Made by a program: the position numbers and the translations under genes | The notes under the pieces: model-generated | What the model saw: only the letters and a program-made list of their open reading frames with translations | Told to the model about the DNA's origin: nothing | The model's database searches: none | Shown: positions 5,959-19,799 of the stretch, piece by piece | How positions within the stretch are numbered: the stretch's first letter is position 1 | How the letters are laid out: every line of letters begins with the position of its first letter | NCBI RefSeq assembly: GCF_003732545.1 | Contig: NZ_AYKF01000070.1 | Location: 1 to 54,786 of the forward strand | DNA from: Salinisphaera orenii subsp. halophila YIM 95161 | GTDB lineage: Bacteria; Pseudomonadota; Gammaproteobacteria; Nevskiales; Salinisphaeraceae | DNA: 54,786 nt | Direction: 5' to 3'

Positions 5959-7434
5959 TCAGCCGCGGCGTCGACGTCGTCGTCGCAGCCAGGCCACGGT
6001 CAGCCATACGCCGCTGGCGCTGAGTGCGCCGCCGCCGGCCAGCGCGGCCAGCACGATCACGTACCAGCGCGTGCTGCCGGGCGCCAGGGGCGGCAGCGCG
6101 AGGCTGTGCAGCCCCTGATACAGCCAGCGCTCCAGTCGCCGGCGGCCGTCGAGGGCGTGCACGACTTCGGCCCGAGCGGGGTCGAAATAGACCCGTACGC
6201 CGTCCGCATAGTCCGCCCGATAGACCGGCAGCGGCGGGTCGCGGTCGGCGAGTCGATCACGACGCCGTGGATAGTGATAGGCGTCGTAGGCGGTCAGCCG
6301 GTCCAGTTCGGTCAGGGCATGGCCGCCGCGCCGGGCGAGCAGCGCCCGGACCCGGGGTTCGCCCAGGCGCTCGCTCAGCCCGGTGCCGTCCTCGGCCACC
6401 CAGGCCGTGGCGCCGTCGGCCGCGGACAGCCGGTAGCCGCTCTCGCCGGCGATGGGTTGCCAGGCGATCTCGCGCAGACGGGCCGGCCGCTCGTGCGCCG
6501 CCGCCAGGGCCGCGATCGGCCGCGTCGGCGGTTGCGGGCGCTCGCCGCCGGCGATCCAGCTGCGTGCGCCGTCGTCGAACAACGGCTTCGAGGCCCAGTG
6601 AAACGGGTCGAGCGACAGCAGGCCGCTGAACACCCAGGTGAAGGCGAACAGCCCGAAGACCAGGCCGAGGGCGTGGTGCCAGCCGCGCCAGCCCCGCGGA
6701 CGACGACGATGCAGGCGCCGCCACTGCAGCGCGCCGAGGGCCAGGCCGGTCAGGCACAGCACCGCGCCGACGCCGGCCAGCCCCATGACGAGCTGCCGCC
6801 AGAGGCCGTCGAGATGACGCAGCCGGGTCGGGTAGAGCCAGTGAACGACCGGCCCGGCGTAGCCCCACAGCCGCGCCGCGCGGTCGGCCCGGTGCACGAG
6901 TTCGCCGGTGCGCTCGGACAGATAGACCACGCTGCCGGCCTCATCCGCGAGCGCGACGCGCCAGAGCGGTCGGAACGGCGACAGCCGGCCGGCGAAGGTC
7001 CACTGGTCCGGCCGCGTCAGCCGCGTGGCCTCGGTCGCCGCCGCGCCGGTGAGCCGCCGGGCGCGCTGTCGGGCGGAGGCCCGCTCGAGCGCGGGCACGG
7101 GCGCGCCGGTGTCGGCGTAGACGCTGCGCCACGGGCCGCCCTCGGTGCGCAGATGCAGGCGCGGGCGGTCGCCGGTCCGGGTGACGCGAATGGCGCTCGG
7201 CGGCCCGGGCAGATCCAGTGTTCGCGCCGCGCTCGCGGGCGCGGCCCGGAGTGTCTCGATCCGCAGGTCGGCCAGCGCGGCGCGACGCGGGCCGTCGCCG
7301 TAGTGCGGATAGCCGTGGAAGACCATCACCACGCCGGAGGCGAACCAGGCCAGCATCATCAGACTGAGGCCGATGCCCAGCCAGCGATGCAGGACGATCA
7401 GCACCGGCTGCCACCGGCGTGCCTGGGGCGCCAT
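5959..7434 (-). CDS. PepSY-associated TM domain protein, coupled to btuB-like gene
   Basis: 491 residues with four predicted membrane helices: near residues 12-36 (VLHRWLGIGLSLMML), two in the middle (GLAGVGAVLCLTGLALGAL and HHALGLVFGLFAFTWVF), and one at the C-terminus (YVIVLAALAGGGALSASG) before an Arg tail. Long periplasmic loops include PepSY-like segments. The family has conserved helix-borne His residues and includes members linked to periplasmic reduction of siderophore metals; that role is known for relatives, not shown here. The start codon shares one base with the stop of the upstream TonB receptor (TGATG), so translational coupling is likely and both fall under the cobalamin riboswitch. 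A role in cobalamin reduction or uptake is inference. Confidence 0.85.
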   Translation of the reverse strand: MAPQARRWQPVLIVLHRWLGIGLSLMMLAWFASGVVMVFHGYPHYGDGPRRAALADLRIETLRAAPASAARTLDLPGPPSAIRVTRTGDRPRLHLRTEGGPWRSVYADTGAPVPALERASARQRARRLTGAAATEATRLTRPDQWTFAGRLSPFRPLWRVALADEAGSVVYLSERTGELVHRADRAARLWGYAGPVVHWLYPTRLRHLDGLWRQLVMGLAGVGAVLCLTGLALGALQWRRLHRRRPRGWRGWHHALGLVFGLFAFTWVFSGLLSLDPFHWASKPLFDDGARSWIAGGERPQPPTRPIAALAAAHERPARLREIAWQPIAGESGYRLSAADGATAWVAEDGTGLSERLGEPRVRALLARRGGHALTELDRLTAYDAYHYPRRRDRLADRDPPLPVYRADYADGVRVYFDPARAEVVHALDGRRRLERWLYQGLHSLALPPLAPGSTRWYVIVLAALAGGGALSASGVWLTVAWLRRRRRRRG

Positions 7435-9401
7435 CAGAAGGTGTAGCTGTAGATCAGCTGGGCGTTTCGCGGCACGCCGAGCCAGTCGTAGCGGAACGTG
7501 TCGCCGTCGGGACGCGTGTCCTGCGCGACGCGGGTCGCGTAGCGCCGGTCGGTCAGATTCTCGAGGCGCAGCGTCACGCGGTGCGCGCCGTCATCGCCGA
7601 ATCGCTGGTAGGTGCTGGCATCGAAGAGGGTGTAGTCGCCGAACGAGCGGTCGCCGTAATCGGCGAGCTGTTCGGTGTTCTCGCCGACGTGGCGCACGCT
7701 CAGGCGGGCGCCGCGCATTCGCCGGTCGCTGTCCCAGGCCAGGCTCGACTTGGCCACCCATTCGGGGATGCCGGGAATCTGGCCGTCACCGTCGAGGGTC
7801 TGCGAATCCGCATACGTGGCGCTGATGTCGAACTGCCAGCCGGTCGTGCCGCCGAGCTCGAGTGCGCCCTGGGCGCCGCGTACGCGCACGCCTTCGTCGG
7901 CGTTGCGGAAGGTGCCCTCCTCGACGGTGATGAGATGGTCGATCTCGCGGTGGAAGCCGCCGAGCTTCCAGTGCACGCCCGGCCGCGGGTCGCCGACGAG
8001 TGCCGCGCGCACGTTGCGGCTCTCCTCGGGCCCGAGATCCGGGTTGCCGGCGGGGAAGGCCGGGTCGATCACGAACAGCTGGTAGGCACTCGGCAGGATG
8101 AAGTTGGTGCCGGCGGAGGCCTTGAGGCGCAGGCCTTCGGCCAGCGGCTGGTCGAGGCTGGCGTTCCAGATCGTGTGTTCGCCGCCGAAATCCGAATGGT
8201 TGTAGCGGGCGCCGAGCGCGATCCGGGTCTCGGGCGAGAAGGCCAGGACCGGCCGGAACTGGGCGAAGCCGGCGTGCACGGTCTCCTCTTGCTCGTCGAT
8301 TCGGAGGACATAGTCCCGGCCGGCGTATGACTGGAGGTCGTAGCCCAGCAGAAGCTCGCTGCCGCCCGGTGCGATGTAGCGTCCGGCCAGGTTGGCGCCG
8401 TAGTCGTCGTAGCCCCACTCCTCGCGGTCGTTGATGACGTTCCGCGAGCCGTCGTCGTCGAGGCCGATCTGGGTGTAGTCGGTCCACCACGAATGCCAGT
8501 AGCCCTTGGCGTAGTAGCTGAAGCGGTCCGAGAGGCGCTGATCCCACTTGATCGAGGCGATGACCTCGTCGCGGTCGTTGAGCGAGTGGTGGTTGTTCAC
8601 CGGCTTGGCGTTGTCCGCCGCGGCGTCGTTGTAGAGCGCGAGTACGCGCAGCGAACTGTCGGCCATGGGCGAGGCGCTGTACTTGGCGCCGATGCTCTGG
8701 CGCTTGAAGCCGCGGTCCTGGCGCCGCGCATTGGCCTGATAGGCGTCCCGCTCGAACGGCTCGTAGCCGTCGGATTCGTCATAGGCGCCGAAGACCAGCC
8801 ACTCGCCCAGCGGGCCCGGGCCGGTGACGTGACCCGCCGCGCGGCGGTCGCCCAGCGTGCCGGTGCCCAGGCGCAGCTCGCCGCCGCGTTCGGCCTTCGG
8901 CTTGCGCAGGACGATGTTGACGACGCCCGCCACGGCCTGCGTGCCGTAGAACAGCCCCTGACCGCCCCGCAGCACCTCGATGTGGTCGATCATCTGGGTG
9001 GTGATCGAGTCCAGCGGCGTGGTCGAGCCATACAGGCGGTTGTTGATACGCACGCCGTCGACCAGCCAGAGCACGTCCTGGGTGCGCGAACCGTCGAGCG
9101 AGGCGTCGACGTAGCTGCCCCGGCCGGCGCGCGGCGCCACGAAAAGCCCGGGGGCCAGGCGCTCCAGCGCCTGCGCCACGTCGCTCATGCCGGTGTCCTC
9201 GAGGGTCCGGCCTTTGATGACCTCGCGCTCGGCGCCGTAGGCCGCGAGCTCGGCGGGCAGCGTCTCCTCGATGGCGGAACCCTCGACCTCGATGCCGCCG
9301 AGGGCGTCGGGTGAGGGGGTGTCGACGCCTGCAGCGAGGACGGGTCCGCAGGCGGACAGCAGCAGCGCGCGGGACAGCGCGCGTTCGGGTCGATGAAACA
9401 T
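7434..9401 (-). CDS. btuB: TonB-dependent outer-membrane receptor, BtuB-like
   Basis: 655 residues, close to BtuB length. A signal peptide (to about residue 24, ending VLAAG) is followed by a plug domain (ALERLAPGLFV, LWLVDGVRINNRLYG, IDHIEVLRGGQGLFYGTQA, VVNIVLRKP) and a 22-strand-type barrel ending in Phe (LIYSYTF), as outer-membrane proteins do. The substrate assignment rests mainly on the cobalamin riboswitch just upstream; the barrel could also import another corrinoid or metal chelate. Start chosen at ATG 9401, at the head of the signal peptide; the frame is open to 9659 but that part overlaps the riboswitch. A PepSY membrane protein is coupled downstream. No btuCDF genes are in the window. 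Confidence 0.85.
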   Translation of the reverse strand: MFHRPERALSRALLLSACGPVLAAGVDTPSPDALGGIEVEGSAIEETLPAELAAYGAEREVIKGRTLEDTGMSDVAQALERLAPGLFVAPRAGRGSYVDASLDGSRTQDVLWLVDGVRINNRLYGSTTPLDSITTQMIDHIEVLRGGQGLFYGTQAVAGVVNIVLRKPKAERGGELRLGTGTLGDRRAAGHVTGPGPLGEWLVFGAYDESDGYEPFERDAYQANARRQDRGFKRQSIGAKYSASPMADSSLRVLALYNDAAADNAKPVNNHHSLNDRDEVIASIKWDQRLSDRFSYYAKGYWHSWWTDYTQIGLDDDGSRNVINDREEWGYDDYGANLAGRYIAPGGSELLLGYDLQSYAGRDYVLRIDEQEETVHAGFAQFRPVLAFSPETRIALGARYNHSDFGGEHTIWNASLDQPLAEGLRLKASAGTNFILPSAYQLFVIDPAFPAGNPDLGPEESRNVRAALVGDPRPGVHWKLGGFHREIDHLITVEEGTFRNADEGVRVRGAQGALELGGTTGWQFDISATYADSQTLDGDGQIPGIPEWVAKSSLAWDSDRRMRGARLSVRHVGENTEQLADYGDRSFGDYTLFDASTYQRFGDDGAHRVTLRLENLTDRRYATRVAQDTRPDGDTFRYDWLGVPRNAQLIYSYTF

Positions 9402-9527
9402 CGGGTCTCCATGCACAAAAAATTCGTGATGGAGCCTCACGTCGTAAACGAGACCGGCACGACAGGGTCGCCCCGTTGGGCAGGTTGGCTGTCGAGTCCG
9501 ATGACCTTGAACGCGAAGGCTCGGTGA

Positions 9528-9545
9528 CAGGCGCCGTTGCGCCTG
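9528..9545 (-). promoter_or_regulatory. 7-bp hairpin between riboswitch and btuB-like gene
   Basis: A perfect inverted repeat (CAGGCGC-AACG-GCGCCTG on the minus strand) sits immediately 3' of the riboswitch aptamer, about 125 bases before the receptor start. It has no T-tract, so it is not a classical terminator. It could be part of the expression platform. Function inferred from position only. Confidence 0.4.
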
Positions 9546-9712
9546 ACTCCAACCGGGTATTCGGACTCGGGGGTACGCCGGTGCGTGACCGGCCTGGCCT
9601 TCGATCGCGGCTTCCCATCCGGTGCGGACAGTGCCGTGATGCGATCGTCGTGCCCCCATACCGCTGCGCGTCAGTCCCGGAATCTCACCGGGTTCCCCGT
9701 ATCGCTCGAGCG
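9546..9712 (-). promoter_or_regulatory. cobalamin (AdoCbl-type) riboswitch
   Basis: On the minus strand the leader has the family's conserved blocks in order: GGGAACCCGGTGAGATTCC then GGGACTGACGCGCAGCGGTA (canonical GGGAA..GGTG..ATCC..CUG..CGC..ACUGUA), then CACTGTCCGCACC..GGATGGGAAGCC (the B12 box), then GAGTCCGAATACCCG (3' closing element). Order, spacing (~165 nt) and location upstream of a TonB receptor all fit. Such elements repress uptake genes when cobalamin is plentiful. Ends are approximate. Confidence 0.9.
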
Positions 9713-13894: not shown

Positions 13895-14344
13895 TCGCCC
13901 GGCCCGCCGGCCGCGATCCGCTCCGGTTTCGGTGCTCTGGGGGGCGGGCGCAGTCACCGTATGGCGCGCCAAGGCGGCGGCGCTTGCCTCCGGCGATGCC
14001 GCCGTTCCGGCGCGTTCTGCAGTTGCCATCGACAGATCGACGCCGTGCTGCGGCCCGTGGGCCATGCCGTGACGCGTATCGCCGCGGCACGCGATCGGGT
14101 GTAAGAGAAACCGACACCAAATAGAGATTCGCCGGGAGGCGCGGCCGCGATGTCCGAGTTGCGGCAACCCCTTGCGGCTCAAGATGTTTCCGAAAGTGCG
14201 GAATGCTCGGTTTCGCGTCCGCCGGCTCGCGGGGCGGTCGCGGCGAGGCCCTGGGCCGGGAAAGTGTCGGAAAAGAATGCACTGGCGTGGCGTTTAGGCC
14301 CAAGCCTTTTGAAAATACATTATGAAATCATGGGACTTCGCTCA
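13895..14344. other. upstream control region of the first PEP-CTERM-type gene
   Basis: 450 bp with no credible gene. It holds two similar blocks: GAAAGTGCGGAATGC (14192-14206) and GAAAGTGTCGGAAAAGAATGC (14261-14280 region), about 68 bp apart, and an AT-rich patch TTGAAAATACATTAT (14309-14323) just before the sigma-54 promoter. Similar elements occur at matching distances upstream of the second PEP-CTERM-type gene. They are candidate activator-binding sites; this is inference from position and similarity. Confidence 0.5.
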
Positions 14345-14360
14345 TGGCACACAAGTTGCT
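14345..14360 (+). promoter_or_regulatory. sigma-54 (RpoN) promoter
   Basis: TGGCACACAAGTTGCT matches the RpoN consensus TGGCACG-N4-TTGCW at all defined positions but one, with GG and GC at the required 10-base separation. Expected start of transcription is near 14371, giving a leader of about 88 bases to the PEP-CTERM gene. In several exosortase-bearing bacteria PEP-CTERM genes are controlled by RpoN with PrsK/PrsR, which fits this location. Confidence 0.8.
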
Positions 14361-14458
14361 GTGATGCAGGCGTGAACCGAGATGTGCAGGTCGCATCTCA
14401 CACACACAACGGAAGAAGGACCTGACTGTTTCTATGCCTTGATAACCGGGTGAAAGCC

Positions 14459-15187
14459 ATGAAAGTCAAAAATATTCTGCTTGGAAGCGCGCTCGTCGCG
14501 CTGGCGACTGCCGGGGGTACGGCCCTGGCTGCTCCGACGATCAACTTCGACAATGCCGGCGCCAACGGCGGCACCGTAAGCTACGACGGTGACGGCGGTG
14601 TGCTCACCGGCTCGGACATCGTTTTCACCAGTATCAGCTTCAGCGGCGGCACCGCGCCGGCCGAGAGTTCGCTGACATGCGGCGGCTGTATGCTGAACTT
14701 CACCACCGGCAACAACATTATCGAGGGCGACGAGACGAGCGACTACCAGTTCGGCGCCGGCGGCACATTCGTGCTTACGGGCGACGCGCTGGATTCCTCG
14801 AACACGGTAATCGCCGACGGTATCCTGCTCACCGGCGAATTCACCGGTCGGCCGACGGCCGCGCCGCAGAACGTCGATCCGAGCACGCCCCCGGGTTCGG
14901 TCAACGTCACGGGTTTCGGTCTCGACACCAAGCATGAGGAACTGCTGGCGTACTTCGGCATCGATCCGGATACGTCTTTCATCTTCTCGTCCACCAACAT
15001 CGCGCTTGGCACGACGAGCTTCGACATGGACACCGGCGCCTTCGAGGGCACGGTGAACAACGCCGATATCGTCAACAGCGGCACGCCGCCGGTGGCCGTG
15101 CCGGAGCCGGGTGAAATCGGCCTTCTGGGCTTCGGTCTCGCCCTGCTGCTGACGGGCATCGGCCTGCGCCGCAGTCGCTCGGTCTGA
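14459..15187 (+). CDS. PEP-CTERM sorting domain protein
   Basis: 242 residues. An N-terminal signal peptide (VKNILLGSALVALATAGGTALAA) is followed by a Thr/Ser/Gly/Asp-rich, strand-forming exported domain and a tripartite C-terminal signal: VPEPGE, a hydrophobic helix (IGLLGFGLALLLTGIG), then LRRSRSV. PEP-CTERM proteins are substrates of exosortase and usually belong to exopolysaccharide/floc systems; no exosortase is in this window. ATG 14459 has GGG eight bases upstream; a GTG three codons earlier (14450) is an alternative. A sigma-54 promoter lies about 100 bases upstream and a strong terminator follows, so the gene is monocistronic. The body has no named domain. Confidence 0.88.
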   Translation: MKVKNILLGSALVALATAGGTALAAPTINFDNAGANGGTVSYDGDGGVLTGSDIVFTSISFSGGTAPAESSLTCGGCMLNFTTGNNIIEGDETSDYQFGAGGTFVLTGDALDSSNTVIADGILLTGEFTGRPTAAPQNVDPSTPPGSVNVTGFGLDTKHEELLAYFGIDPDTSFIFSSTNIALGTTSFDMDTGAFEGTVNNADIVNSGTPPVAVPEPGEIGLLGFGLALLLTGIGLRRSRSV

Positions 15188-15257
15188 GCGCCGACAGCAA
15201 CGTGGCGTTCTAGGCGGGTACGGCGTACAAGCCGGACTCTGCTGCCACGGCTCTTCA

Positions 15258-15292
15258 CGGCACCGTTCGGGATTCCGGACGGTGCCGTTTTT
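15258..15292 (+). terminator. rho-independent terminator of the PEP-CTERM gene
   Basis: GGCACCGT...ACGGTGCC stem with an inner CGG/CCG extension around GATT, followed by GTTTTT. It begins about 70 bases after the stop codon. Confidence 0.85.
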
Positions 15293-16068
15293 CGTTCGGG
15301 CTTCCGACGCGCTGGACGGCGCAGACCGTTGCGTGTTGGACAGCGGCCACGCCGCCACGACCCTGCGAACGCGTCGAAACGCGCCCCTCGTACGGCGACG
15401 GCGCCTGCGAGATCCTTGCTACGGGTGACCCGCGGCCGACACGGCCCACTCCTGCAATCCGGTGCCTTGAACCATTCGCGCGGGGCGTCTGCAACGACCG
15501 TCCCGCTTAGTAGATGATAGCGGCCGGATCTCTCGATGATTTCCGCCCGCCGACTGCTTGGCAGTGCGCGGTCCGAAGCGGTCGGTCGGAATCGCGGCTT
15601 CTGGATCCCGGGCCGGCGAGTCGTCCTCGGCGGGGAGTAGCCTTACGGCATGTCGTGTGGGTCTGGGCAGGCCGGCACCCGCTGCGGCTTGGTGGCCTGC
15701 GCCGGACAGCCGGCGGCGGTGTGGGCGCGGTTTCGAAGCTGAAACGGCGGCAGTCGGAACGCTAGGGCGGGCGACACATGCCCCGTGGGGAACTGCCGAG
15801 TGCATCGATGGCGTTTACTGCGGCGCGCGGCCTCGATGGCTCGCGTTGCGATGGCATGAGGCGTTCGAATTCGCGAAACGCTTCACGATACGTCGAGACC
15901 GGGTGCCCGGGTGCTTGAAGAGGGGGCCGCGCCGCGGCCGATACGGCAATCGACAGTCGCGATGGTTGACGGGAGATACGGTGATGCTTCCGCACCGGGC
16001 GCTCATCCATGGCAGCCGGATGTGGCCGGCAGGCCGCCGTCATCGGCAGTCAATCACCGGTACGTAGG
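15293..16068. other. 776-bp gap without a recognised gene
   Basis: This lies between the terminator of the first PEP-CTERM gene and the 3' end of the convergent RIFT-barrel gene. Open frames here give Arg/Ser-rich translations without motifs. An AT-poor palindromic stretch around 15864-15884 (GCGTTCGAATTCGCGAAACGC) was noted. It could hide a small RNA, but there is no direct evidence. Confidence 0.4.
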
Positions 16069-16096
16069 AGGCCCTCCGCGCACTCGCAGAGGGCCT
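16069..16096 (-). terminator. possible terminator after the RIFT-barrel gene
   Basis: An 8-bp stem (AGGCCCTC/GAGGGCCT) lies 14 bases past the stop at 16110. Reading on the minus strand, the stem is followed by CCTACG rather than a T-tract, so termination would be weak or need other factors. Confidence 0.45.
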
Positions 16097-16109
16097 TGTC
16101 CTTATCAAC

Positions 16110-18569
16110 TCAGCGTGAGCGGGGTACGACCGCGAAGTTCGGCTGGTTGTCGTAGTTCGGCTTGACCTCGCGGTCCTCGAAGATCCGCCACGCGGCAGCG
16201 GCGTCGGGGTGGTCGCTGTCGACGGCCATGGCCAGACCGGGCTGCATGTTGGCGGGGAAGCCGGTCGTGGAGTTGGCATAACCGACCATCTCGCCCGTCT
16301 GGTAACTCGTACCTTCCATGTTGCCCATGCGCAGACGCATTCGGGCACTGTTGCAGCGCGTGCCGACCAGCTCGGGAAAGTTGGCGGCGTAGGCTTCCTC
16401 GAGGCTGTCGTAGTCGTCCGCGCCGCGATTTGGACGGATCTGCAACGAGTAGGTGGAAGCCTCGAGCCAGCAATATCCCTCGGTCGGGTCGTCCTGCCAA
16501 CCCGTCATGCGTTCGATCTGGAAATCGGCGAGCCAGCCGACCAGTTTGTCGGCCCCGGGCATGCGCTGTTCGGCGGCGTGCCCGGCCGCCCAGGTGAAGA
16601 AATCCGCCTGCCAGGGGGCGATACCGACACGCTCCCGACCATCGCTCGGATAGATTACGGCGCCATAGTTGTTGATCACGTGCAGGGGGCTGCGGTCGCT
16701 GTCCACGAACGTGTCGTTGTAGTCGTCCAGGACGTGGTCGACGATTTGGGTGAAGTAGGACTTCATCGGATCGTCGTCCGGGGTCGCGAACGCCGCGTCC
16801 GAGAAACTGCGCAGCGACCAGGCCTGCCCGCGGACCTGACTCTGAGCACCGCGCAGGGTGCCCTTCTTGTAGTCCCGGTATTCCGGATTCGCCCAGAGCT
16901 GCACGTAGGAGGCGATGAACTGCATTTCCTCGAGATAATAGAAATCGCCCGTGACGAGATAGGGCACATAGCCCGTCGACGGATGGTGCGAGATGTCGAA
17001 TTCATAGGGATTGTTGCAATCGCCCTGGCAGCCGGGCAGCAGATCGCGTTGATAATCGGAGCCGGCGCGCTGCGCGTAGCTACGATTGGCGATCGTGACG
17101 TAGGGGTGACGCGTGATCTCCAGCGGGCGTCCCGTTTCGCGGTCGCGGTAGTGGACGCCGTAGCTGCCTATGGCATCGTCGTTGGCCAGCATCCAGCGGA
17201 ACGCACGTCGGTCGCCGGAGACGGCATAGGCCGAGGTCCAGCGAGGGAGCGGGCCGATCGCCGCCTGTGCCCCGGTGGTGGGCATGTAATCGGTCTGGTC
17301 ACCGTTGTTCATCGGCGCCACCGACTGGCGCACGGAGTTGAGCAGTCCGCTGGTCGGCTCGACATCGGCGTACTGCGAGATCGCGCCCGTGGATTGCAGG
17401 TAGTCGGTGTCGATGCGGGCGTACAGGCCCGGATCGTCGTTCCACCACAGCACCCGATGCCAGCGTGCTTGCCGGTAGTGCTTGAGGCCGTTGTTGCGAT
17501 ACTCCTCGTCGCCGACTTCGAGGGTGACGTTGTACTGGGCGTTGCGTGTCTCGTCCGGATAGGCCCAGTTGTTCTCGACCACGGTATCGACACGGGCCCG
17601 CTCGATCTCGCCGTTGTCGTCGGCGTAGGCGCGGATGTGGAAATAGGCCGCGAGCCTGGACGACTCGCCGCCGGCGCCTTCCAGCGGACCGCCGACGATC
17701 CATTCCGAAACCTGCGGCCCGGACAGCCATTGCTTGCACTGCCGGCCCCAGTCCGAGCAGCCGCCCGACGATGCAGTGATATCGTTGAGCAGATCGCGCG
17801 CGTCGACGGTGTAGCGCGTGCCGCGGGCCTTGATCTCGATCCGGGCGTTGAAATCGCTCGCGAGCAGGGCGTCGATGCGCAGCGGCGAGCCGGCGCCGTC
17901 CTCGTCGCCCTCGACCCGCGCCAGATCAATGCGCGTGTCATTGCCCGACGGCGCCACTCGAGTGGAGATTACGGCGTGACGCAGCGAACCGTCGTCCCAG
18001 CGCGCCTTGGCGTCGACCTGTGTCGGCAGCAGACGATCGTCCACCCGGGCGTGGATCGAGTCGTTCTCGGGCACGGCGCCCCGGGCGAAGACCTGCCCGA
18101 AGGTCAGCGGTGCGGCGCCGCCGTTCGACTGGCCGCTGCGGATGGCCCGTACGGAGACCACCGTGTCGCCGACGTCGCCGGGGTCGGTGTCGCTCGTTGG
18201 CGGGGTCTGTTCGTTGTCATCGTCCGGGTCGCTGTTTTCGCCGTCGCTCCCGTCCGTATCCTGATCGGAATCGCCCTGATCCGAGTCGTCCTGATCGCCT
18301 GTATCGCCGTCATCCCCGGCGTTGGTACCGTACTCGCCGGAGGTGCCATAACCGGTGATTTCGGGGGTCCCGGCGTCCGGTGAGGCACCGTCGGAGCCGG
18401 AGGAATAGCCGTCCGAACTGGCCGCATAACCGTCGGAGCTCGCCGATGAGGCGTTCGATCCGCCGGTTCCGGCGGCGGAATAAGAGGGGGCGGCCGAAGC
18501 CGGGGCGAGCGCCGAACCGGCGGCCACAAGGCCGCCGATAAGCCACCACCGAAACATTGCTCCACGCAT
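16110..18569 (-). CDS. secreted RIFT-barrel (PcRGLX/YetA-like) protein with Ser/Asp linker
   Basis: 819 residues. Signal peptide (residues 1-27, ending PASAA), then a Ser/Gly/Tyr-rich part with repeated SSDGY units (about 31-62), a strongly acidic Asp-rich part (about 85-135), then an N-terminal RIFT-barrel-like domain (about 137-215: APLTFGQVFARGAVP, LPTQVDAKARWDDGSLRHAV). That pattern is shared with PcRGLX/YetA-type proteins, some of which act on polysaccharides. The remaining ~600 residues are Trp/Tyr/Asp-rich, as in carbohydrate-active or lyase-like folds, but no catalytic motif is assigned. The ATG at 18569 was chosen ahead of the signal peptide; ATG 18557 is an alternative. Two PEP-CTERM-type genes flank it, suggesting an extracellular polysaccharide context. 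Confidence 0.75.
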   Translation of the reverse strand: MRGAMFRWWLIGGLVAAGSALAPASAAPSYSAAGTGGSNASSASSDGYAASSDGYSSGSDGASPDAGTPEITGYGTSGEYGTNAGDDGDTGDQDDSDQGDSDQDTDGSDGENSDPDDDNEQTPPTSDTDPGDVGDTVVSVRAIRSGQSNGGAAPLTFGQVFARGAVPENDSIHARVDDRLLPTQVDAKARWDDGSLRHAVISTRVAPSGNDTRIDLARVEGDEDGAGSPLRIDALLASDFNARIEIKARGTRYTVDARDLLNDITASSGGCSDWGRQCKQWLSGPQVSEWIVGGPLEGAGGESSRLAAYFHIRAYADDNGEIERARVDTVVENNWAYPDETRNAQYNVTLEVGDEEYRNNGLKHYRQARWHRVLWWNDDPGLYARIDTDYLQSTGAISQYADVEPTSGLLNSVRQSVAPMNNGDQTDYMPTTGAQAAIGPLPRWTSAYAVSGDRRAFRWMLANDDAIGSYGVHYRDRETGRPLEITRHPYVTIANRSYAQRAGSDYQRDLLPGCQGDCNNPYEFDISHHPSTGYVPYLVTGDFYYLEEMQFIASYVQLWANPEYRDYKKGTLRGAQSQVRGQAWSLRSFSDAAFATPDDDPMKSYFTQIVDHVLDDYNDTFVDSDRSPLHVINNYGAVIYPSDGRERVGIAPWQADFFTWAAGHAAEQRMPGADKLVGWLADFQIERMTGWQDDPTEGYCWLEASTYSLQIRPNRGADDYDSLEEAYAANFPELVGTRCNSARMRLRMGNMEGTSYQTGEMVGYANSTTGFPANMQPGLAMAVDSDHPDAAAAWRIFEDREVKPNYDNQPNFAVVPRSR

Positions 18570-18934
18570 GGGCTGTCCGTCCGTTTGTTGCAGAAAGAGT
18601 GATGTGCAGTACGCCGCTGTCTTCGCCGGTCGGAAAGGCGGACAGCGGGCACCGAAATGCGGATGAGGCAACCCGGCCGTCATGACGCTGGGTTACAGCG
18701 TGTTAGACCCGTGGTTTTGCGCGGCCGTCTTTCGACGGCGATGCCCTTGGTCTGCTGTGCGAAACTAAGAACTACTTTCGACCCTGTCAAATACGTCTGC
18801 ACAGCCCAGTCGATGGTGGACGATAGGTTGGCGATCGTCCATGTGCATGTCGCCTGTCGGGAAATATTACGCAAGTCGTCGCCCGCCAGACTGTTGCTTG
18901 AATATAGTATATTTAAAACAGGTAGTTGCGATCT
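18570..18934. other. intergenic control region between RIFT-barrel and second PEP-CTERM-type gene
   Basis: 365 bp, divergent promoter region. Elements seen: a near-dyad TTTCGAC-CCT-GTCAAA (about 18777-18792), TGTCGGGAAATATTAC (18855-18870) that resembles 14265-14280, and an AT-rich palindrome AATATA-G-TATATT (18901-18913). No convincing sigma-54 site was found facing the RIFT-barrel gene. No gene is recognised. Confidence 0.5.
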
Positions 18935-18950
18935 TGGTCCCGATCTTGCT
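18935..18950 (+). promoter_or_regulatory. probable sigma-54 promoter of second PEP-CTERM-type gene
   Basis: TGGTCCCGATCTTGCT matches nine of the twelve defined RpoN positions, keeping the essential GG and GC with correct spacing and a perfect TTGCT. Predicted transcription starts near 18960, about 30 bases before the ATG. Upstream motifs are shared with the 14345 promoter at nearly identical distances. Confidence 0.65.
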
Positions 18951-18989: not shown

Positions 18990-19799
18990 ATGATTCCCAA
19001 TGCGCTCCCCGCTCTGGCTTCGCATCGACGTGGTTGGCTTCGGTGTGGCGCATCGCTGCTGCTGGCAGTCGTCGCGATCTCCGCCCAAGCGGCGGTGATC
19101 CCGGCCGGTGCGGACACCTTCGGCGCCGATGCCTCGCGTATCGATTTCGACGAAGTGCCTCTGGGTACCGCCAATCCGATCTACACTCCGGCCGATGGGG
19201 CGGCGAACCGCGGCAGCGTGAGCTTCGGGGGCTACTTCAGCGGTCAATCGCTCGGCAACGTGGCCGAATGCGGCGCCAGCACCGCCTGCGTCAGCGGCAC
19301 ACCGAATGCCGGCCTGAGCTTGGACCTGCAGTCGTCGTCCACGGTGACCGTCACCGACAGTGCGAGCAGCAACAACCCGGTGCTCACCGGCCTGCCCCTG
19401 TTCAACGGTCCGATCTCCATACTCTTCGGGGCCGACCAGGCCGGCATCGGCCTGTCCGTTGGCTTCATCAACGCCATCGGCGCCGAGCGCCTCACTGCTT
19501 TCGACCGCGAGGGCAACGTGCTGGGCTCGATCACCAACGATGCTCTCGGCTACTCCGTGCTGGCACTGGTGACCGATGACGGCAGCAACGATATCGCCGG
19601 TGTGCAGCTGACCGCCACCCTCGCGGCCGAGGGCTTCGCGCTCGAGAACATGCTGTTCGGTCAGCGGGATCAGCTGCTGAATCTGCCGTCGCCGGGTGAT
19701 GGTGACGGCGTGGACGTGGCCGAGCCGTATTCACTCGGCCTGTTCGTGCTGATGGGGGGCCTGGTGGCGCTGATCGCCCTGCGCCGCCGCCGGGTCTAG
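18990..19799 (+). CDS. exported protein with PEP-CTERM-like C-terminal anchor
   Basis: 269 residues. A long signal peptide (CGASLLLAVVAISAQAAV, about residues 19-36) precedes a Ser/Gly/Asn-rich strand-forming body. The tail is AEPYSLG, then LFVLMGGLVALIAL, then RRRRV: the same motif-helix-Arg layout as PEP-CTERM but with AEP in place of PEP. The body segment IDFDEVPLGT..NPIYTPADG resembles the start of many PEP-CTERM ectodomains. Sorting by an exosortase is therefore plausible rather than certain. It has a sigma-54-like promoter and ends in a long hairpin, so it is probably monocistronic. Confidence 0.75.
   Translation: MIPNALPALASHRRGWLRCGASLLLAVVAISAQAAVIPAGADTFGADASRIDFDEVPLGTANPIYTPADGAANRGSVSFGGYFSGQSLGNVAECGASTACVSGTPNAGLSLDLQSSSTVTVTDSASSNNPVLTGLPLFNGPISILFGADQAGIGLSVGFINAIGAERLTAFDREGNVLGSITNDALGYSVLALVTDDGSNDIAGVQLTATLAAEGFALENMLFGQRDQLLNLPSPGDGDGVDVAEPYSLGLFVLMGGLVALIALRRRRV

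Follow-up and report, generated by a model that had tools for sequence, protein, structure and literature searches.

The computation settles that two genes for PEP-CTERM-type proteins in a 54,786-nucleotide window of Salinisphaera orenii subsp. halophila YIM 95161 (contig NZ_AYKF01000070.1) are members of a single regulon, and that this regulon is of a type already known. Both genes very probably have PrsR-activated sigma-54 promoters that are bent by IHF and whose activator box is spaced from the promoter by helical turns. A 17-nt sequence with a TTTACA 3′ end, called motif 1, was proposed in 2006 as the PrsR box (Haft et al., PMC1569441), and in the same system motif 1 is followed by a sigma-54 motif (motif 2) with a mean spacer of 62.8 ± 10.6 nt, in association with PrsR, PrsK and PrsT (PMC1569441). 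An earlier note on the window had proposed that a single activator drives the two genes and that TGTCGGNAAA belongs to its operator. This proposal is supported by the comparisons described below, from which we infer that the activator is PrsR.

Two sigma-54 promoters and their upstream boxes

The products of both genes are detected by the TIGR02595 model (Table 1), whereas the Pfam PEP-CTERM model at E 0.1 detects neither. Gene 1 has orthologues at 84% in S. orenii (genome G074) and 61% in genome G084, and gene 2 has orthologues at 95% (G074), 58% (G083) and 55% (G084). The S. orenii entries L072 and G074 represent one genome, as the G074 locus is found letter for letter inside L072.

Table 1 Features of the two PEP-CTERM genes and their promoters
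Feature	Coordinates	Strand	Details
Distal predicted PrsR box, gene 1	14100..14116	-	TGTCGGTTTCTCTTACA; 21.7 bits, window rank 1 (held-out PWM)
Proximal predicted PrsR box, gene 1	14265..14281	+	TGTCGGAAAAGAATGCA; 81 nt before -24 GG; right half weak
Candidate IHF site, gene 1	14309..14338	+	A/T arm TTGAAAATA 14309-14317; core AATCATGGGACTT 14326-14338, -20 from GG
Sigma-54 promoter, gene 1	14345..14360	+	TGGCACACAAGTTGCT; exact pattern match; S. orenii identical; start predicted ~14371 by convention
Gene 1	14459..15187	+	242-aa PEP-CTERM protein, tail VPEPGEIGLLGFGLALLLTGIGLRRSRS; TIGR02595 18.3 bits, cut-off 16
Predicted PrsR box, gene 2	18855..18871	+	TGTCGGGAAATATTACG; 81 nt before -24 GG
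Candidate IHF site, gene 2	18898..18928	+	A/T arm TTGAATATA 18898-18906; core AAACAGGTAGTTG 18916-18928, -20 from GG
Sigma-54 promoter, gene 2	18935..18950	+	TGGTCCCGATCTTGCT; exact pattern match; S. orenii identical; start predicted ~18961 by convention
Gene 2	18990..19799	+	269-aa PEP-CTERM-type protein, AEP replacing PEP, tail VAEPYSLGLFVLMGGLVALIALRRRRV; TIGR02595 17.5 bits, cut-off 16

The sequence elements that had drawn attention to these promoters are all present as described. The RpoN sites at 14345-14360 and 18935-18950 are the sole exact matches to TGGYNCN5TTGCW in the window (n = 2). Taken alone, this pattern is hardly enriched, as 14 window matches with at most one mismatch compare with a shuffle mean of 8.5 and are equalled by 6 of 100 shuffles. 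The sequence TGTCGGNAAA begins 81 nt upstream of the -24 GG at both promoters (14265 to GG 14346, and 18855 to GG 18936). These are its only exact matches in the window, and with up to one mismatch it is found at 6 places versus a shuffle mean of 5.0. The extended 18-mers of the two promoters are identical at 13 of 18 positions, and the AT-rich words TTGAAAATA and TTGAATATA start at 14309 (-37) and 18898 (-38).

When the two 200-nt upstream stretches are compared at equal offset, the 10-mer match is equalled by 3 and the 18-mer match by 4 of 2,000 dinucleotide-shuffled pairs. These values become 27 and 17 of 2,000 if a shift of 1 is permitted, and the AT-rich word within the spacer, at a shift of ±1, is equalled by 27 of 2,000 shuffles. 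Dinucleotide shuffling was used for the pairwise, two-strand and class-wide tests, and mononucleotide shuffling for the de novo motif, spacer, IHF-slot and genus box tests; because the sequences are related, the counts from shuffling and jittering should not be taken as strict probabilities. If the two promoters resembled each other by chance, or if one had recently been duplicated from the other, this would fit the finding that at any offset the best 10-mer and 18-mer matches are unremarkable (equalled by 79 and 14 of 150 shuffles, respectively). We nevertheless regard such an origin of the pair as extremely improbable. The two spacers at zero shift are dissimilar (471 of 2,000 shuffles are as good), distant orthologues with different flanks retain a box 92 nt (gene 1, G084), 81 nt (gene 2, G083) or 78 nt (gene 2, G084) before the GG, and a motif learned elsewhere recovers both window sites.

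That motif was derived de novo from 28 PEP-CTERM promoters in five related genomes, a training set from which the genome of YIM 95161 and its near copy were held out. It is a 17-nt imperfect palindrome, TGTCGgaaaAtcTTACA, whose left half is TGTCGGNAAA. The palindrome fits motif 1 (PMC1569441), and the core of the box is therefore already known. The motif reached a log-likelihood of 209 (250 starts), compared with at most 63.5 in 12 shuffled sets (25 starts each), and boxes of at least 11 bits occur within 170 nt in 26 of 28 training promoters and 10 of 13 held-out promoters. In the window, the held-out motif lands precisely on 14265 (11.7 bits) and 18855 (19.3 bits), and under another background these sites score 13.4 and 21.3 bits. 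It is through this comparison that the pair is well beyond chance, as a motif learned without the genome in question ranks 18855 second and 14265 third in the window. The box at 18855 is also unchanged in S. orenii (G074), although the stretch preceding it there has diverged.

Gene 1 carries an additional, distal box at 14100-14116, which was overlooked in the earlier note and is stronger than the proximal one. This distal box is conserved in S. orenii next to a partly diverged flank, but it resides 9 nt closer to the promoter and therefore holds no fixed helical phase. The upstream region of gene 1 in S. orenii thus retains both boxes. The gene 1 orthologue in G084 is likewise preceded by a pair of boxes, at distances of 253 and 92 nt from the GG, and a second box is present in 20 of 41 box-bearing promoters of the genus.

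Among seven genomes of the genus, a sigma-54 score of at least 9.5 is reached at 41 PEP-CTERM genes, every one of which has a box within 450 nt (28 of these genes were used for motif training and 13 were held out), against a background of 0.016 matches per shuffled region. The sigma-54 weights derive from a consensus sequence, and the threshold of 9.5 is below 10.3, the level that is reached by 5% of random 600-nt stretches and passed by 39 of 61 genes. A sigma-54 site scoring at least 9.5 is absent from 20 of the 61 PEP-CTERM genes in the genus, and a box is absent from the searched stretch in 11 of 61. In the YIM 95161 genome, 2 of 10 PEP-CTERM genes have neither element.

A genome-wide search for the spaced motif, as suggested previously, did find both window sites with no match in the reversed control, but the strict composite TGTCGGNAAA-N55-85-TGGNNCN5TTGC occurs nowhere else in the 3.79-Mb genome, because TGTCGGNAAA is only one variant of a degenerate half-site. 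This composite was dropped as a genome-wide search pattern. A loose composite was also dropped as evidence in this genome, where its 52 matches versus 57 in the reversed control are at chance level; the regulon is therefore not definable from sequence alone. Across the order, TGTCG-N7-TTACA combined with TGGCAC was too strict (2 matches, in 1 of 85 genomes).

PrsR and its partner proteins

A look-up of exosortase, PrsK and PrsR, also proposed in the earlier note, located all three in the YIM 95161 genome. PrsR (677 bits), PrsK (649 bits) and PrsT (479 bits) each score above cut-off, as does exosortase A (XrtA; 288.7 bits, cut-off 208). A PrsT-PrsR-PrsK-EpsB2 array shares one contig with exosortase A, within a polysaccharide cluster. 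PrsR is present above cut-off in 7 of 14 genus genomes, and PEP-CTERM genes occur in exactly these 7. The other 7, of which 3 are 81-87% complete, have no PEP-CTERM genes.

The box could be real and yet be bound by an NtrC-type activator other than PrsR, which we judge to be improbable. In favour of this reading, 8 places in the YIM 95161 genome match the PrsR model across the greater part of its central region, and 7 of the 8 score below cut-off. However, only the above-cut-off PrsR divides the genus 7/7 exactly as the PEP-CTERM genes do, whereas each of the 14 genus genomes has matches to the model with E-values of 1e-100 or better, and the same profile match was reported for 13 proteobacterial species (Haft et al., PMC1569441). 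Composite matches in individual genomes count against the PrsR model: G082, which is without PrsR, has one, and the pattern is missing from the PrsR-bearing genomes G072 and G080, although a looser matrix does find boxes in both.

Helical spacing and a candidate IHF site

A class-wide survey of 369 genomes uncovered 101 composites, 4 in the YIM 95161 genome and 97 in 64 others, whereas the reversed control gave 7, indicating that roughly 7 of the 101 may be chance matches. Class counts use the 97 rows that remain after removal of the 4 from YIM 95161, and genus spacing and IHF counts use 32 rows, 4 G074 rows having been removed from 36 as near copies of G000. The box-to-promoter spacing of the 97 class sites has a period of 11.0 nt, and 0 of 5,000 jittered sets show one as strong. 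Spacing bands of 69-71, 79-83, 91-95, 99-103 and 112-114 nt accommodate 88 of the 97 sites. The commonest class spacing is 81 nt (11 of 97), and two sites picked at random from this set would have equal spacing in 6% of cases. The equal spacing of the window promoters is therefore ordinary, and we reject its earlier use as special evidence.

For 30 new loci among the 101 composites, a crude pattern applied to 1.5-kb flanks finds PEP-CTERM-like ends downstream in 13 and on the opposite side in 1, leaving 17 of 30 unexplained. A composite at locus C110, where a PEP-CTERM-like tail is absent among the frames listed, is probably a chance match.

The AT-rich word is present where the earlier note had placed it, and its most plausible identity is the A/T arm of an IHF site, a better reading than a part of the activator's site. 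A two-strand unsupervised search of genus spacers yields the motif WWTCANNGNNTTG, which fits the IHF consensus and has a likelihood of 62.6, a modest excess over the maximum of 55.9 in 15 shuffled sets. This search superseded a one-strand version that returned unclear words. The IHF consensus WATCARNNNNTTR (PMC7962754), with at most one mismatch, occurs in 53 of 97 class spacers (first 80 nt of each match), compared with a shuffle mean of 13 and a maximum of 20 in 100 shuffles. Among the matches listed, 41 of 97 class spacers carry it in one of two slots fixed relative to the promoter (+ strand at -20; - strand at -32 to -34) and 56 of 97 do not, with the + slot visible only at spacings of up to 88 nt (54 of 97 rows). 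Its frequency is 17% of visible rows in the + slot and 7-16% in the - slots, versus 0.24% elsewhere. Most IHF rows of the + class (9 of 10) have spacings of 80-82 nt, compared with 30 of 54 visible rows, which is weak evidence of clustering because of the same limit on visibility.

The core for gene 2 differs from the consensus at one position and scores 11.8 bits, with a shuffle p of 0.00035 in the preferred slots. Its counterpart in S. orenii (G074), AAACAAATGGTTG, has three changes, each at a consensus-free position. The core for gene 1 occupies the class-wide + slot but is a weak match, with 3 mismatches, a score of 2.4 bits and a shuffle p of 0.063. This poor core would suit a different reading, unlikely in our estimation, in which the AT-rich word is simply flexible DNA or an additional contact for the activator and no IHF site is present. 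AT content climbs toward the promoter even in spacers that lack the slot consensus, and some sigma-54 enhancers are described, in an excerpt of PMC4740811, as lacking an IHF site while having AT-rich sequence that is conserved. The agreement of the unsupervised motif with the IHF consensus, the high slot frequencies and the confinement of S. orenii variation in the gene 2 core to free positions argue instead for an IHF site.

Proposed mechanism and relation to known systems

In the mechanism we propose, the membrane kinase PrsK would activate PrsR by phosphorylation, and phosphorylated PrsR would then occupy the boxes at 14265 and 18855, plus the stronger box at 14100 for gene 1. IHF would bend the DNA at a fixed spot just before the promoter, over a stretch from about -37 to about -8 relative to the -24 GG. 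The resulting loop would allow PrsR to contact RpoN-polymerase poised on the -24/-12 element and start transcription. Spacings that differ by whole helical turns would be tolerated because the activator has to face the polymerase, with 81 nt as the favoured distance. The products would be secreted, presumably processed by exosortase A, and made alongside exopolysaccharide. More broadly, PrsR promoters of Gammaproteobacteria probably combine a palindromic box that moves only by whole turns, a promoter-anchored IHF site that has the same footprint of about 30 nt in either orientation, and a -24/-12 element. If this is true, PEP-CTERM secretion would be an all-or-none switch that is looped and IHF-gated.

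Many bacteria from the environment have PEP-CTERM/exosortase systems, and in one wastewater bacterium floc formation involves a PEP-CTERM protein (excerpt of PMC9850573). Control of such genes is represented in the literature searched by the 2006 prediction and by a single gene whose RpoN dependence was measured. With the box sharpened, an IHF slot located and helical spacing formulated as a rule, the regulon can be searched for with an improved pattern, and the prediction becomes testable at the bench.

The promoters described here share with the system of Haft et al. (PMC1569441) a 17-nt box with a TTTACA-like 3′ end, a sigma-54 motif, a PEP-CTERM product and PrsR, PrsK and PrsT. The 3′ ends in the window, AATGCA and ATTACG, depart from TTTACA as given in the published text (rather than the logo). 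From the end of the box to TGG there are 63 nt in both window promoters, within the published 62.8 ± 10.6 nt, although the start of motif 2 may be defined differently. The 2006 report gives the spacer as a mean and standard deviation only, and its main text mentions IHF 0 times (PMC1569441); here, in contrast, the spacer varies in helical-turn steps and the IHF consensus occupies fixed slots. The 2006 work had already predicted the box and the promoter, whereas in the literature searched we found no description of an IHF site or helical-turn spacing for PEP-CTERM genes, nor of a three-part grammar (box, IHF site and -24/-12 element) for PrsR promoters.

Three other systems offer partial parallels. 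For pepA of Aquincola tertiaricarbonis, RpoN1 dependence and the transcription start were measured (PMC9850573). Like the genes studied here, pepA is a PEP-CTERM gene with a -24/-12 promoter (mapped in that case) and a predicted upstream enhancer; unlike here, the evidence is measured rather than computed. The activator of pepA is not shown in that work, and IHF is not mentioned. Among 61 sigma-54 enhancers studied in connection with Vibrio LuxO-qrr, loop lengths between roughly 80 and 120 bp fall into clusters separated by about 11 bp (PMC4740811). These steps resemble ours, but the activator and genes differ, and our promoters combine the predicted activator PrsR with promoter-anchored IHF consensus. 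Finally, IHF-assisted promoters of the NtrC family also have an IHF site between the activator site and the RpoN promoter (PMC7962754). The promoters described here differ from them in using two slots on opposite strands, one at -20 and the other near -33, an arrangement that would place one IHF footprint at the same spot.

A 17-nt box upstream of PEP-CTERM promoters

Both genes encode PEP-CTERM proteins, scoring 18.3 bits (gene 1) and 17.5 bits (gene 2) against TIGR02595, whose cut-off is 16, and 10 such genes above the cut-off are present in the organism's own genome. The closest named relative is Salinisphaera orenii (Gammaproteobacteria; 83% identity for gene 1), whose genome (G074) was counted as the same genus in the genus search. 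An earlier note had proposed that the two genes share RpoN promoters, an upstream word 81 nt before the GG of the −24 element and an AT-rich word, TTGAA(A/T)ATA. On re-reading the window sequence, all of its coordinates and distances were correct. The elements of the pair are each weak when taken singly, because an RpoN pattern with one mismatch allowed barely exceeds its shuffles in the window, and the two upstream stretches resemble each other unusually well only when the offset is fixed (3 of 2,000 shuffles do as well, versus 79 of 150 at a free offset). The genome-wide search suggested at that time, conducted with a strict composite of box, spacer and sigma-54 site, recovers both window sites and no other place in the 3.79-Mb genome.

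A search of the genus at E 0.07 yielded 61 PEP-CTERM places, all within 7 of 14 genomes. Near the gene, 41 of these have a sigma-54 site scoring at least 9.5, a threshold lower than the 10.3 met by 5% of random 600-nt stretches; 39 of the 61 exceed 10.3. A motif trained on 28 promoters from five other genomes, TGTCGgaaaAtcTTACA, has a log-likelihood of 209, whereas none of 12 shuffled sets exceeds 63.5. Within 170 nt and with a score of at least 11 bits, this motif is found at 26 of the 28 training promoters and 10 of 13 held-out promoters and, having been learned without the window's own genome, places both window boxes exactly where the earlier note had them. All 41 genes with a sigma-54 site carry a box within 450 nt, where 0.016 matches are expected per shuffled region. 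Two distinct boxes precede 20 of the 41 (22 rows have at least two matches, in two of which one palindrome was counted on both strands). Among the 20 genes without a sigma-54 site scoring at least 9.5, a box occurs in 9 and none was found within the searched stretch in 11. For the own genome, 8 of the 10 PEP-CTERM genes have both box and sigma-54 site, and 2 have neither.

Gene 1 also carries a distal box, missed previously, that lies 246 nt before its GG and has the top score in the window. In S. orenii this box is identical beside an altered flank, 237 nt from the GG, and a 61% orthologue of gene 1 in another genome of the genus (G084) likewise carries a pair of boxes, which lie 253 and 92 nt upstream of the GG. 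We infer that the distal box would be the strong site of gene 1, in which the proximal box is weak.

Locations of boxes, putative IHF cores and other features (G, genome, G000 being the window's own; C, contig; L, fetched locus)
Feature	Location	Strand	Sequence	Remarks
Distal box, gene 1	14100-14116	minus	TGTCGGTTTCTCTTACA	21.7 bits
Box, gene 1	14265-14281			then 63 nt, then TGG of sigma-54 element
Box, gene 2	18855-18871			then 63 nt, then TGG of sigma-54 element
IHF core, gene 1	plus slot		AATCATGGGACTT	weak, 2.4 bits, p 0.063
IHF core, gene 2	plus slot		AAACAGGTAGTTG	11.8 bits, p 0.00035
Large protein	16110-18560	minus		816-857 aa by start codon
TonB plug and PepSY-associated proteins	5959-9659	minus		adjoining
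AEP sorting motif, window	19722-19793
AEP sorting motif, C88	G000:C88:20020-20085 (L197)
Two PEP-CTERM genes by cluster	G000:C63:58609-59719 (L035)
Composite by open frame	G000:C1:189640-189723 (L198)		VPAPAAGLLGFGLIGLAGLVRRRR (tail)	copy in G074 (L111)
Composite in G082	G082:C11:277814-277905 (L113)

Box-to-promoter spacing

For 32 promoters of the genus (G074 copies left out), box-to-GG distances fall into groups at 68–70, 77–82 (15 of 32), 92–93, 98–100, 111–115 and 125–127 nt, with a single distance of 167 nt. The best period is 11.3 nt, and 1 of 5,000 jittered sets was equally strong. A class-wide composite scan of 369 genomes gave 101 matches in 65 genomes, versus 7 for the reversed control. 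The 97 matches outside the own genome are grouped at 69–71 (8), 79–83 (42), 91–95 (22), 99–103 (10) and 112–114 nt (6), the remaining 9 lying elsewhere; their period is 11.0 nt (0 of 5,000 jittered sets equally strong), or 11.1 nt when one match per genome is used (64). The equal 81-nt distance of the window pair is correct, but is not remarkable as a shared feature, because 81 nt is the most frequent single spacing (11 of 97) and two sites drawn from the class set have a 6% chance of equal spacing.

The AT-rich word as an arm of a putative IHF site

A both-strand search of the genus spacers without a prior yielded WWTCANNGNNTTG, which matches the IHF consensus WATCARNNNNTTR and has a log-likelihood of 62.6 (highest of 15 dinucleotide-shuffled sets, 55.9). 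When up to one mismatch is allowed, the consensus occurs in 21 of 32 genus spacers versus 5.2 in shuffles (0 of 200 match that), and class-wide in 53 of 97 versus 13.0 (top of 100 shuffles, 20); perfect class-wide matches number 12 versus 0.7. The consensus prefers slots anchored to the promoter, with its left edge, relative to the GG, at −20 on the plus strand (17% of 54 visible rows) or at −32 to −34 on the minus strand (7–16% of 81–83 rows), compared with 0.24% on average at remaining positions. These slots hold the consensus in 41 of 97 class rows and lack it in 56, and in the minus slot it is fixed in place although the box shifts by one turn.

In IHF sites an A/T-rich arm flanks the core on one side, and therefore the plus and minus slots would set one footprint at the same place. 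Several of the 10 plus-slot class members have words resembling TTGAA(A/T)ATA at the arm position (for example, GAAAATAG and GAATATAA). The gene 2 core has 3 differences in S. orenii, each at a free consensus position. Given a clear core for gene 2 and a weak one for gene 1 in the same plus slot, TTGAA(A/T)ATA most probably represents the A/T arm of a putative IHF site, an assignment that is likely for gene 2 and tentative for gene 1.

PrsR, its genomic context and known systems

Of the 14 genomes of the genus, 7 have PrsR above cut-off, and PEP-CTERM genes occur in the same 7; none was found in the other 7, three of which are 81–87% complete. Weaker matches to the PrsR model, present in all 14 genomes, are other NtrC-type regulators. 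This distribution within a single genus looks as if the PrsR/PEP-CTERM system were gained or lost as a unit. A composite pattern gives 12 matches in 6 of 14 genomes (reversed control, 1) and is absent from G072 and G080, both of which bear PrsR. Several boxes in these two genomes have TATCA, TGTCA or TGACA in place of a terminal TTACA and so are missed by strict TTACA patterns; the box may drift by lineage. One of the 12 composite matches lies in G082, a genome in which the searches found no PEP-CTERM gene and no PrsR above cut-off, and is chance or a relic.

Exosortase, PrsK and PrsR, which the earlier note advised seeking, reside in the own genome on a contig other than the window, in an XrtA/PEP-CTERM polysaccharide cluster comprising PrsT, PrsR, PrsK, EpsB2, chain-length, export, deacetylase, FemAB, glycosyltransferases and exosortase A. 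Two more PEP-CTERM genes adjoin this cluster; their boxes lie 100 and 114 nt upstream of the sigma-54 sites. AEP replaces PEP at the sorting motif of two PEP-CTERM-type proteins of the own genome; the one on C88 scores slightly under the Pfam cut-off (20.1 bits) and has an upstream box and sigma-54-like site. On C1, a composite match lies close to the start of an open frame with a PEP-CTERM-like end, a possible further regulon member. Between genes 1 and 2, and divergent from gene 2, a large protein has as its sole match a weak N-terminal PcRGLX RIFT-barrel (25 bits) and is possibly a polysaccharide-acting enzyme. Elsewhere in the window, the TonB-dependent receptor plug domain protein and PepSY-associated membrane protein form an iron-uptake-like pair.

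The box, the promoter and the PrsR link have been known since 2006, when Haft et al. (PMC1569441) reported that 99 of 167 PEP-CTERM genes of Proteobacteria are preceded by a motif 1 of 17 nt and, after a spacer of 62.8 ± 10.6 nt, by a sigma-54 motif 2, and linked motif 1 to PrsR via phylogenetic profile. For one PEP-CTERM gene of Aquincola, RpoN dependence and a mapped −24/−12 start were reported in 2023 (PMC9850573). With its 17-nt boxes, 63-nt spacer and sigma-54 element, the window pair fits the system of Haft et al., and its reading as shared-type sigma-54 PEP-CTERM promoters holds, adding two new members to an established class of promoters. Beyond that reading come the second box of gene 1, the slot for putative IHF sites and a rule of spacing by helical turns. 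Placement of IHF between an activator site and a sigma-54 promoter is general knowledge (stated in PMC7962754); for PEP-CTERM promoters we found no report of it, judging by titles and the opening lines of abstracts, in a full-text literature search thin on subscription journals, and the main texts of Haft et al. (PMC1569441) and the Aquincola paper (PMC9850573) do not mention IHF. In their stepwise box-to-promoter distances, the box-bearing promoters resemble the LuxO-driven qrr enhancers of Vibrio, 61 of which exhibit the same kind of spacing steps (PMC4740811).
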